Below, in pieces: positions 21,166 through 24,437 of a stretch of DNA of 64,000 nt (positions are counted from its first letter, which is position 1; every line of letters starts with the position of its first letter). The stretch comes from Candidatus Competibacteraceae bacterium (GTDB lineage Bacteria; Bacteroidota; Bacteroidia; CAIKAF01). Both the position numbers and the translations under genes were made by a program. The notes beneath the pieces were generated by a model. It had not been told where the DNA came from, made no database searches, and was given only the letters and a program-made list of their open reading frames with translations. The stretch spans positions 82,757 through 146,756 of the forward strand of contig JACSSC010000039.1 of the NCBI GenBank assembly GCA_014879445.1. The letters run 5' to 3'.

Positions 21166-21825
21166 TTATTCTGTCTTGTTTATGTATTTCTTCAATATAT
21201 ATTGTTTCATCTTCTCCGGCAATACTGAATCTTGTATGGCTTTTTGTATCATCTCCTCGTCCGCCTGCTCAGCATATAACAACGCAAAGATAGCTGCTAC
21301 ACTCAGCCCGCTTGCTCCTTGTTCCAGCATCTGCATCTTGTCGCCCGGTTTTACATGCCCCGCTTCAAGCACTTTTACATATATACCCGGATATCTGCTG
21401 CGCCTAAATTGATCGGGCATTCCATCATCGTTAAATCGTATGCCCATCTTGTAGCACGGCTGCCTTGGCTGCGTAACCTGTACCTTGGCATCTCCTATGC
21501 GATAGATGTCTCCAATCCATATCTCCGACTCTTTCAGTCCATCCACCGTCAGGTTTTCGCCAAACATACCCGGCTCAAATTTTAGTGCCGGAAATCGCGA
21601 CTCCCAATAGGCATAGTTTTCCGTACCATATAGATAACAACTTTTATTCTCTCCCCCATGATGAACCTTGTCATATACCGTATCGCCAATTACTCCATCG
21701 GCACTAAGCCATATACCATCCGCTTGCGGCTCTTTGTAATACCCCGTAGTCTCCTCCTTCCCCGCATACTCGATGCTGCGTGGCCGCGACTTGTTGGTAT
21801 ATCGTATGGTGTATATCATACTCAT
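21166..21825 (-). CDS. MOSC domain protein (YiiM-like)
   Basis: 'GDTVYDKVHHGGENKSCYLYGTENYAYWESRFP...FEPGMFGENLTVDGLKESEIWIGDIYRIGDAKVQVTQPRQPCYKMGIRF' with conserved Cys. Confidence 0.92.
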   Translation of the reverse strand: MSMIYTIRYTNKSRPRSIEYAGKEETTGYYKEPQADGIWLSADGVIGDTVYDKVHHGGENKSCYLYGTENYAYWESRFPALKFEPGMFGENLTVDGLKESEIWIGDIYRIGDAKVQVTQPRQPCYKMGIRFNDDGMPDQFRRSRYPGIYVKVLEAGHVKPGDKMQMLEQGASGLSVAAIFALLYAEQADEEMIQKAIQDSVLPEKMKQYILKKYINKTE

Positions 21826-22415
21826 CCCTTTGGCGAAATTAATATAATAAGAGATTCTAACATATGGTTGCCCTGCCTCACAATGTCAAACTGAAACGAC
21901 GATAGTCGCCACTTAAACATCTGTAGCCGAAATGCACCCATCACAAAATGTAACATCTCATCTGCCGTTATCTGATTGGTGAATATACCACTACGCTGCC
22001 CCTCCATTATCACCGGCATCATGTGCTTCATCTTAATGGCCATAATCCGCAATATCGCCTCATTCACCCGCTGGTTGTCTTCTATCAACCCATCGCTGAA
22101 TACCGCTACCACAAACTGTGGATTCTGCTTGAAAAACTCAAACTGACGCTGAAATATCTGCAAAAATTTATCCCCCGAATCTATTTTATCATCTCTCGTT
22201 ATCTCGCTTAAATACATATCCATCCGCCTAGCCAAATAGTTCAACATCCCAACCACTATATCTTCCTTCGAGGCAAAATGCCGGTATATAGCACTCTCCG
22301 AAAACTTCATCTCCTTCGCCAAGTTTTTTATCGTGAGCCCACTCACACCCGATTGCGTAAGGATCTTACCCGCCGCTTCTATAATCTCTAATTGCCTGTC
22401 CGATATCTCTACCAT
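21822..22415 (-). CDS. TetR/AcrR family transcriptional regulator
   Basis: 'ISDRQLEIIEAAGKILTQSGVSGLTIKNLAKEMKFSESAIYRHFASKEDIVVGML' HTH. Start revised from 22448 to ATG at 22415 because a promoter-like element occupies the longer ORF's 5' end; ATGA overlap with MOSC gene. Confidence 0.93.
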   Translation of the reverse strand: MVEISDRQLEIIEAAGKILTQSGVSGLTIKNLAKEMKFSESAIYRHFASKEDIVVGMLNYLARRMDMYLSEITRDDKIDSGDKFLQIFQRQFEFFKQNPQFVVAVFSDGLIEDNQRVNEAILRIMAIKMKHMMPVIMEGQRSGIFTNQITADEMLHFVMGAFRLQMFKWRLSSFQFDIVRQGNHMLESLIILISPKG

Positions 22416-22432
22416 ATCTCTATTTTCTTTCA

Positions 22433-22465
22433 CAAATATAAAATTCATACAATATTATTATTCAA
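22433..22465 (-). promoter_or_regulatory. Candidate Bacteroidota primary-sigma promoter of the tetR operon
   Basis: Minus strand: TTG (22465-22463) - N22 - TATATTTG (22440-22433), matching TTG-N17-23-TAnnTTTG; about 17 nt upstream of ATG 22415. Confidence 0.5.
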
Positions 22466-22477
22466 TCTTTTTTTACG

Positions 22478-22495
22478 TATGTGAATATTCACTCA
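22478..22495. promoter_or_regulatory. Candidate TetR operator palindrome
   Basis: TATGTGAATATTCACTCA containing perfect 12-bp palindrome GTGAATATTCAC (22481-22492), just upstream of the candidate -33 box. Confidence 0.45.
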
Positions 22496-22593
22496 CAAAG
22501 TTAACTGCTTTATTCTAAATCGCCATATTCTCAACACGAAAAAATGTTAATATCAAGTCAATGTCCTGTATTCGAGTATGTTGTAATATGTAT

Positions 22594-22707
22594 TGGGCGC
22601 CCGCCCCGCACTTGCAGCTGCGGGTCGCCGGGCTATCCAGGGCTTCGCTTTGCTACGGTGCTACGCACCGCTGCCTGTAGGCAGCGCCCTTCCTATCCCT
22701 GCCGCTA
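22594..22707 (+). repeat. GC-rich intergenic structured element A (candidate Bacteroidota dispersed non-coding repeat)
   Basis: GGGCGCCCGCCCCGCA...GGGTCGCCGGGCTATCCAGGG...GCTACGGTGCTACGCACCG...CCCTTCCTATCCCTGCCGC with three perfect hairpins: CCCGCA/TGCGGG (22605-22624), CGGTGC/GCACCG (22656-22670), GCTGCCT/AGGCAGC (22670-22685); GC-rich island in an AT-rich spacer. Confidence 0.6.
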
Positions 22708-22891
22708 AACAGCCCACAGAGTTCCCACAACCTCCAACAGCCCAAAATTTCATTCGCAATCAATTTTTTTTAGCCCAAGCGCATCCACAAGAATTCGTCT
22801 TTCCGCCTCATAACATTTGCTCGAACTTATTGAGTTGAAAGAGGAATTGCAGGCAATAATGTTTGGGTGAATTAGCAAATCATGATAGATA

Positions 22892-24118
22892 TTAAAAAGG
22901 CCAAAGGATGCGGAGGTATAGTAGGGGGTTGAGCCATTGTGATTTGTTGGCTGGTTCTTCTATCATTTGTCGCAGTAGGTCTTTGAAGGCGGGGCTTCGG
23001 TTGGCTTTTTGTACCACCCTATCGAAGAGGCGTGGGTATTGGAGTAGTTGTTGGAGGCGATAGCTGGTTTTCATTTCGGAGCCGATGGCTTGATGTAGGA
23101 GATGGTTGTAGGCATGCAGGTGAAGCATGGGGTTGGGTGAATGTAAAGCATGTATGATTGATTGAGCGGCGATTCGGCCGGAGGTCATGGCATATCCTAT
23201 ACCTTCGCCGGTGAAGGGGTCGATGCAAGCGGCGGCATCGCCGGTGAGCAAGATGGGGCCATGCACCAATGGGCGACGGAGAGAACCGAGTGGCAAAGGG
23301 AATCCGCGAGGAGGTTCGAGGGCTGAGGCATATTTGAAGCGTGGAGAGAGGTGAGGGTGATGGTGGATGATATGTTGGAAGAGGTGGCGCAGGGATATTT
23401 TTTTTTGAATCACCACATCAGATCGCATGCCCATACCAACATTTGCTAATCCGTTGGGGAGCGGAAAAATCCATACATATCCGGGGAGGGTTTCGGGCAG
23501 AAAATGAAGTTCGATGAGGGTGGGTGATGGGAGCCCTGTTACGCCTGTAAAATATTGTCTGACACCTGCGCTAAGGTGAGGGTGTTGATGTTGGATACCG
23601 CAGTGTCGGGCGATGATAGATTGAGCGCCATCGGCAGCGATGATGAAGCGTGAAGAGAAATGCCCCTGAGAGGTTTGAAGAGTTACATGCTGTTTTGAGG
23701 TATTGATGGATTGGACGGTACACTGGGAGATGGTTTGGATGTGAGGGTGATTGGATGCGAGGTTGAAAAGAAACTGGTCGAAGTGGATACGGGGGAAAAG
23801 GTATCCGGGTGCTGAGAGGCCGGGTCGTACTTTGCGCAGGATGATATCGAGAGTATGCAGGTTGGGTGATACGAATCGGATGCCTGAGGTAGCGATTTTG
23901 GGTTCGGCTTGCATGAATGCTTGCATAACTTGTGGGCCAAGTTTATGCAGTTCGTATCCGACAGTACCGCTAAGGGCATCGCCACATATTTTGTCGCGTG
24001 GGAAAGTGGCTTTATCCATGAGGCATACCCTTAGTCCACTGTTTTGCAGGTGCAGTGCGGCGGTGCTTCCGGCGGGTCCGGCGCCAACGATAACGACATC
24101 GAATTGTGGATGAGACAT
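22892..24118 (-). CDS. Geranylgeranyl reductase family FAD-dependent oxidoreductase
   Basis: 'FDVVIVGAGPAGSTAALHLQNSGLRVCLMDKATFPRDKICGDALSG', 'LLTGDAAACIDPFTGEGIGYAMTSGRIAAQ'. Start revised from 24313 to ATG 24118 (MSHPQFDVVIVGAG). Confidence 0.92.
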   Translation of the reverse strand: MSHPQFDVVIVGAGPAGSTAALHLQNSGLRVCLMDKATFPRDKICGDALSGTVGYELHKLGPQVMQAFMQAEPKIATSGIRFVSPNLHTLDIILRKVRPGLSAPGYLFPRIHFDQFLFNLASNHPHIQTISQCTVQSINTSKQHVTLQTSQGHFSSRFIIAADGAQSIIARHCGIQHQHPHLSAGVRQYFTGVTGLPSPTLIELHFLPETLPGYVWIFPLPNGLANVGMGMRSDVVIQKKISLRHLFQHIIHHHPHLSPRFKYASALEPPRGFPLPLGSLRRPLVHGPILLTGDAAACIDPFTGEGIGYAMTSGRIAAQSIIHALHSPNPMLHLHAYNHLLHQAIGSEMKTSYRLQQLLQYPRLFDRVVQKANRSPAFKDLLRQMIEEPANKSQWLNPLLYLRILWPF

Positions 24119-24160
24119 ATGGGGCGAACATACGTTTTTTTTGTTGAACGACGAAAGTAT

Positions 24161-24306
24161 GCGGCCGCGATTGCAGCGAAAAGCCCGGAATGCCGGTGGC
24201 CTGTCAGCGTAGGCGTGGCAGGGGCTGATGGAGGAAGCCCCCTGCCACGGCATTACGATGCGGATGCCGGCATGAGGACTTGTAGCGGAAAGCGCGAAAT
24301 GCCGCC
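24161..24306 (+). repeat. GC-rich intergenic structured element B
   Basis: Imperfect direct repeats TTGCAGCGAAAAGCCCGGAATGCCGG (24171-24196) and TTGTAGCGGAAAGCGCGAAATGCCGC (24280-24305), 21/26 identical, flanking a long hairpin CGTGGCAGGGGCT (24214-24226)/AGCCCCCTGCCACG (24236-24249). Confidence 0.6.
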
Positions 24307-24437
24307 CAAGCATAAAAAATACATTGGGTGGGGGAGGGGGTTATTAACACTCGTTTATGAATACTGTGTGTGGGTGTATGAAAAATGATGTTGCTAAAGC
24401 TGTACATTTGATTTCGTAAAAGAAAAAAAATCGTTGT

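Follow-up and report, generated by a model that had tools for sequence, protein, structure and literature searches.

The window, the whole 64,000-nucleotide stretch of contig JACSSC010000039.1 that was analysed, carries a 111-bp GC-rich island (22595-22705) in an AT-rich spacer, between a TetR gene (21822-22448, minus strand) and a FAD-dependent oxidoreductase-like gene (ending at 22892, minus strand). The preliminary description had placed this island at 22594-22707 and suggested that a spurious ORF concealed it; the edges used here were set by an alignment of 20 copies and by a covariance model. Two plus-strand ORFs (22544-22708 and 22593-22838) cross the island and do look spurious, since the repeat does not code for protein and its covariation is that of a structure. 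Relatives of the TetR gene with 53-67% identity are present in many Bacteroidota families, and no ortholog was found in the three congeners searched, on which grounds the stretch around this gene was likely acquired horizontally; the scan made with the TetR gene brought up no relatives of the element. The features discussed below are the following:

22544-22838, plus strand: two apparently spurious ORFs crossing the element (22544-22708, 22593-22838)
22592-22594, no strand: left flank; across copies, T predominates strongly in the three bases that precede GGGCG
22595-22705, minus strand: complete element, the window copy of the genome's subfamily of about 20 copies (repeat edges, covariance-model match, strand preference)
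22597-22601, no strand: P0 5′ arm, GCGCC on the plus strand, pairing with 22701-22705 (GCCGC) with one mismatch (22600 x 22702)
22602-22627, no strand: P1, variable hairpin (arms 22602-22609 and 22620-22627)
22630-22635, no strand: P2 5′ arm, GGGCTA on the plus strand, part of the first linker of the preliminary description; pairs with 22694-22699
22639-22690, no strand: P3, AGGGC (22639-22643) with GCCCT (22686-22690), from the minus-strand fold and pair counts in own copies
22657-22669, no strand: hairpin GGTGC-TAC-GCACC within P3, same evidence
22670-22685, no strand: hairpin GCTGCC-TGTA-GGCAGC within P3, same evidence
22694-22699, no strand: P2 3′ arm, TATCCC on the plus strand, part of the third linker of the preliminary description (pair counts, covariation)
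24161-24307, plus strand: second, diverged copy of the superfamily with a long apical hairpin and no P1 (match to covariance model R1, 32.3 bits, E 1.8e-5)

A DNA search of the organism's own genome (2.69 Mb in 62 contigs, the basis of the count of about 20 copies) matched the element at 20 places, with 81-100% identity and E values from 3e-13 to 3e-59. The element is thus repeated far beyond chance, and the alignment of the 20 copies shows sharp edges common to all of them. Several copies lie at contig ends, as expected because repeats break assemblies. At an E value of 0.001 the same type of search found the element in none of three congeners and twelve other genomes of the same family, and matched Hymenobacter plasmids and more distant members of the class (G036, G053). 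Aligning these two genomes with the own copies yielded a core pattern, CGGGCTWTNC ... YNATCCCTNNCGC, which is present in 106 of 395 Bacteroidia genomes with a maximum of 51 copies in one genome (G284), while the reversed pattern, used as a control, had no match over the same 395 genomes. This general form was also present in some members of the organism's own family that the DNA search had missed, and the proposal of a dispersed intergenic repeat with relatives in other Bacteroidota is borne out. About 126 distinct copies were parsed from the fetched loci; typical members are 60-150 bp long with common ends (TTT preceding GGGCG on the left, CGC followed by RR on the right). These comparisons place the window element in a large superfamily, as a divergent subfamily specific to its lineage. 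Some copies occupy orthologous sites in different genomes (L135/L136 and L235/L237), indicating long retention.

The element folds as a three-way junction composed of an outer helix (P0), a variable hairpin (P1) and a long arm (P2/P3). Read on the minus strand, the order is P0 (GCGXY/Y′X′CGC), P2, an internal loop, P3 with its apical hairpin or hairpins, and P1, which is of very variable length and closes the junction. P2 on this strand consists of GGG, a constant A.G mismatch, a T-A pair and a W-W′ pair; in the window, this mismatch within P2 reads C.T on the plus strand. All 126 copies share the mismatch, the letters of which were part of the search pattern. The W-W′ pairing, unlike the mismatch letters, was not forced by the pattern, and is A-T in 84 of the 126 copies, T-A in 38 and another combination in 4. 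P0 covaries across species (GCGTG/CACGC, GCGTT/AACGC, GCGCA/TGCGC, GCGGC/GCCGC), with the P0 counts biased upward by a pairing-favouring score used to pick its 5′ site, and it is partly degenerate in the organism's own subfamily, where one pair is often lost. Four P1 pairs are changed on both sides among own copies, and P1 is compensated across species.

Covariation is strong: the score for 44 trimmed sequences was 0.251, compared with 0.080 after shuffling and at most 0.056 with slid partners, and for 38 full elements it was 0.279 compared with 0.084 after shuffling; none of 500 shuffles reached the observed score, and compensatory changes are found in P0, P1 and P2. The evidence for structure comes from comparison; the single-sequence fold of the window copy is unremarkable (z of -0.57 on the plus strand and -1.77 on the minus strand). 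These results support the earlier picture of variable stems on a constant scaffold, as the stems change by compensation, and the hairpins recognised in it (GGTGC/GCACC, GCTGCC/GGCAGC and CCCGC/GCGGG) are real. The constant linkers were misread as spacers: TCGCCGGGCTATCC and CCCTTCCTATCCCTGCCGC are not unpaired but pair with each other, and GCTACG, also proposed as a constant linker, shows no conservation across species.

Part of this structure has been described as Flavo-1 RNA (Rfam RF01705; Weinberg et al. 2010, PMC2864571). The RF01705 model matched eleven chromosomal and phage relatives of the element at or above its gathering threshold (L116, L114, L113, L139, L120, L450, L447, L467, L421, L405 and L411), in each case at the exact place of the element and on the minus strand, and further relatives below the threshold. 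The window copy itself gave no match to RF01705, either at the gathering threshold (42 bits) or at an E value of 10. A covariance model (R1) built from 38 elements of other genomes only, including sequences that pass RF01705, matched the window at 22595-22705 on the minus strand (30.9 bits, E 3.9e-5) and matched all own copies tested. By the Rfam criterion the window element is not a member of RF01705; it falls within a larger superfamily, and Flavo-1 is one arm of it. The shared features are the GGGATW...WAGCCC helix with its A.G mismatch, the internal loop and the apical helix; Flavo-1 is this element's P2/P3 arm, taken from the opposite strand. The 76-position Rfam model lacks P0 and P1, and with them the three-way junction and the ends of the element. 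Rfam files Flavo-1 as an sRNA gene ('Gene; sRNA'), whereas the copy number and spread seen here resemble those of a mobile repeat. The preliminary description knew of no assigned function for such sequences; the family had, however, already been described in part.

The second copy in the window (24161-24307) has P2 as GCG/CGC in place of GGG/CCC, a compensatory change, and folds with a z of -3.06; it is an independent witness for the fold within the window. The first ~50 codons of the minus-strand ORF at 22892-24313 cross this copy. Because the 5′ end of the ORF runs over the repeat, the start of the oxidoreductase is probably MSHPQFDVVIVGAG, a short way downstream of it.

Copies are also found on plasmids of Hymenobacter, Bacteroides, Phocaeicola and Moraxella catarrhalis, where they are matched by the covariance model; a Vibrio plasmid gave a partial match only, which the covariance model did not confirm. 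The Moraxella catarrhalis copy (L511, 1506-1655) is on NZ_CP018060.1, a gammaproteobacterial MOBF plasmid, and has a long apical hairpin. This copy represents transfer beyond the Bacteroidota.

In the flanks of the 126 copies, T is present at positions -3, -2 and -1 in 83%, 79% and 68%, respectively, and the first two bases on the right are mostly A or G. No target duplication was detected (mean direct-repeat length 0.67, compared with 0.58 for shuffled flanks). Chromosomal copies have no consistent orientation relative to the genes around them (++ 39, -- 30, -+ 28, +- 22), and the 51 copies of G284 show no replication-strand bias (23 of 48 by 20-kb GC skew, a weak proxy in a draft genome). 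A clean pair of filled and empty insertion sites was not found: the neighbouring sequence also differed in every comparison, and for this reason transposition itself was not seen. No empty site was found for the window locus, the TetR ortholog being absent from the congeners, nor for two other own loci with conserved neighbours, where synteny was lost, nor behind terL (L505/L507), where another sequence of similar length takes the place of the element. Among 15 species of one genus the same locus is present with or without the element, and the downstream gene changes as well. In genus g14 of family f9 (L263-L277), a conserved gene has a different downstream neighbour in nearly every species. 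The boundary is occupied by the element in some species and by GATCAGA-type repeats in others, and is a hotspot of gene turnover.

Within family f33, the element lies inside a composite repeat of ~400 bp that is common to several genera and is arranged as TTAAGGCAAAGTT, a Flavo-1-like element, and CATTATARGACA (L246, L239, L252, L242, L244, L245, L236 and L238). Among the several hairpins of the composite is one in which GTAAAGC/GCTTTAC is exchanged for GCCCCGC/GCGGGGC, and its copies are often spaced at 5-23 kb and point the same way. Tracing the composite for its 3′ end and for a gene-bearing version gave only a few copies and no autonomous form. Its tail, TAACATAACGCAGTACATTATAGGACA, also occurs by itself in different genera, with a conserved stretch after it (L313, G151:C23:8025; L315, G209:C18:436609), and there looks like a recombination site.

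Several known classes of mobile or structured sequence were compared with the element. Like REP, BIME and REPIN sequences, it is short, structured, extragenic, dispersed and without coding capacity, and falls into lineage-specific families; it differs from them in being a three-way junction of 60-150 bp rather than a palindrome of 20-40 bp with a GTAG foot, and in showing no association with RAYT genes in the genomes tested. The 5′ GTAG/GGAG foot at a short hairpin is absent from the ends (TTT before GGGCG, RR after CGC). No match to PF01797 (Y1_Tnp) was found in the organism's own genome or in the element-rich G053, and the Y1/RAYT loci examined (L143-L154 and L155-L174) are all without the element. 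The earlier suggestion of a mobile or REP-like sequence accordingly holds for its behaviour and fails for REP in the strict sense. The element could also be an atypical REP moved by a Bacteroidota RAYT of TnpA_REP subclass 2.6: flanking 'atypical secondary structures' have been reported for Bacteroidota genes of this subclass, with further copies at other genomic sites (PMC6006769). The lack of Y1_Tnp and of element-bearing RAYT loci largely refutes this, and we give it scarcely any credence.

Resemblance to derivatives of IS200/IS605-type (HuH Y1) elements lies in the absence of target duplication, structured ends on one strand and a fixed short flank on one side (WTTT); it is a resemblance only and does not amount to membership, as the own genome has no Y1 gene and the lagging-strand template bias of such elements is not seen in G284 by the GC-skew proxy. 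MITEs are likewise non-autonomous dispersed repeats, but the terminal inverted repeats of the element amount to no more than the 3-5 bp of P0, and without a target site duplication an origin from a DDE transposon was rejected. Integron attC sites were rejected in the absence of RYYYAAC ... GTTRRRY cores, the ends of the parsed copies being GGGCG (or close variants) and CGC. An association with a resident reverse transcriptase was not supported, as no RVT_1 match was found in G053, G284, G159, G079, G201, G258 or G129; the own genome has one RVT_1 gene.

The strand on which the structure acts bears on whether the element is an RNA gene, which is what the Rfam label implies: a trans-acting or cis-regulatory structured RNA transcribed from the minus strand. 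Of 124 distinct elements, 109 have the more stable fold on the minus strand (mean z of -1.87 compared with -0.79 for the plus strand), one-sided changes in paired columns of the own copies are G-U compatible on the minus strand, and the covariation described above would suit an RNA. Across species, however, P1 contains 561 Watson-Crick, 4 G-T and 7 A-C pairs and hence little wobble on either strand, which is weak evidence that would favour constraint on DNA over constraint on RNA; the GTCC/GGGC subtype departs from this in P3, which has a T.G on the plus strand. The element is also multi-copy, patchy and inconsistent in orientation, and in the transcriptome of F. psychrophilum Flavo-1 matches are found sense or antisense indistinctly, many of them outside transcribed regions (PMC9723704). 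We therefore regard an RNA gene as improbable.

Chromosomal copies prefer the 3′ ends of genes: among the 61 that have a sense gene upstream, 23 lie within 25 bp behind its stop, compared with 12 of 52 at antisense 3′ ends and 9 of 125 at gene starts, figures that are approximate because genes were called by simple ORF choices. In viral contigs, the core pattern was found in 92 stretches (84 distinct places without duplicates), and in at least 20 of these contigs 0-18 bp separate the element from the stop of a preceding gene of 490-583 aa; the element is then always in the sense orientation and sometimes abuts the stop directly (TAG followed by GGGCG). Twenty-one of the upstream genes form one alignable family, two of its members being 98% identical, with Walker A and B motifs and C-terminal acidic motifs. 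A profile of this family matched solved structures of the phage large terminase TerL (E 1e-4), PHROG 2 matched three members, and tblastn led to annotated terminases of Bacteroidota phages; Pfam and PHROG searches and isolated phages gave little for these terL genes. Most of the terminases share no more than 23-33% identity with the first sequence of the alignment, so that the position behind terL would be either very old or repeatedly regained. Copy C6 of G284 has exactly the sequence of a copy behind terL in a viral contig, and probably lies in a prophage.

This recurrent position can be read in two further ways. First, the element may act on RNA at the 3′ end of the upstream gene, terminating its transcription or shielding the mRNA from 3′ exonucleases, as REP and BIME sequences can, and be kept where it is useful, most clearly behind phage terL. 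Besides the excess behind sense stops and the uniformly sense terL copies, a pair of close relatives speaks for this: the terL slot of one (L505) holds the element, and that of the other (L507; 79% identical terL) holds instead a terminator-like hairpin and T run. The position behind terL suggests that, at least there, the element does or replaces something at the transcript 3′ end. Against a 3′-end role, the element is not followed by a T-tract, many copies on chromosomes lie upstream of genes or antisense to them, the sense strand is the worse-folding one in most copies, at least two own copies come after a hairpin with a T run of its own, and the published Flavo-1 matches are untied to transcript ends (PMC9723704). 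An intrinsic terminator in the narrow sense was rejected for the window copy, with no terminator-like site in 22300-23000 and mostly purines as the first downstream bases. As a general account of the element, a 3′-end role is unlikely.

Second, the element could be a phage-derived signal for packaging or for the genome end, or belong to a phage packaging RNA, with the chromosomal and plasmid copies as strays. Its tight, sense and recurrent place behind terL in diverse phages would fit, as would the next 300-700 bp, which are non-coding and contain further inverted repeats in several phages. Yet most copies are chromosomal, up to 51 in one genome, and the element is missing from isolated phages with a related TerL (Leef_1, Ingeline, FPSV-F7, Mea-Yong924-1 and P. 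gingivalis phage022a) and from several TerL relatives in viral contigs; this explanation is very improbable. The non-coding stretch behind terL (L417 3095-3734, L421 3730-4456, L470 7741-8567 and similar) is possibly a longer structured RNA of Bacteroidota phages in its own right.

The reading that we favour, with moderate confidence, is that the element is a structured DNA repeat of the Flavo-1 superfamily that is non-autonomous and spreads horizontally. A mobile structured repeat fits best with the patchy distribution, the lineage-specific amplification, the presence on several types of replicon, and the fixed T-rich flank without duplication or orientation relative to genes or replication. 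The folded single strand, the minus strand in the window, would serve as the recognition signal for a mobility enzyme acting in trans. Insertion would take place next to a T-rich triplet, without duplicating the target and often just behind genes, where it would do little harm. Phages and plasmids may carry the element between cells, and the copies within one genome would stem from recent local amplification. In the terL slot of phages the element may be kept, perhaps for work at the 3′ end of the terL transcript such as termination or RNA protection. Weighing against a mobile repeat are its constant sense placement behind terL across diverse phages, which looks like function rather than pure parasitism, the copies at orthologous sites, the missing filled and empty pair and the missing mobility enzyme.

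The core arm, Flavo-1, was already known. What is new, as far as the literature searched shows (few subscription papers or preprints were covered), is the complete element with both its ends and its junction, the divergent subfamily of this genome, the range of replicons and taxa, the tests of RAYT, reverse transcriptase and orientation, and the association with terL. A bolder possibility, which we put forward only tentatively, is a new class of structured mobile DNA in which an enzyme that leaves no duplication recognises the three-way junction, with the terL slot and plasmids as vehicles and the Flavo-1 sRNA as one arm. If this is true, the 'Flavo-1 sRNA' of Rfam would be an arm of a mobile element common to hosts, plasmids and phages. 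For annotation, the repeat is a warning, as it makes false ORFs and false protein starts such as the 5′ end of the 22892-24313 ORF. Flavo-1, filed since 2010 as a structured RNA, gains full boundaries and a complete three-way-junction fold, and its range widens to about a quarter of the sampled Bacteroidia genomes, to phages, and to plasmids reaching the Gammaproteobacteria; to this is added its striking, fixed place behind terL. The question of what Flavo-1 is thereby becomes testable, through movement of the element, a protein that binds the junction and a role behind terL.
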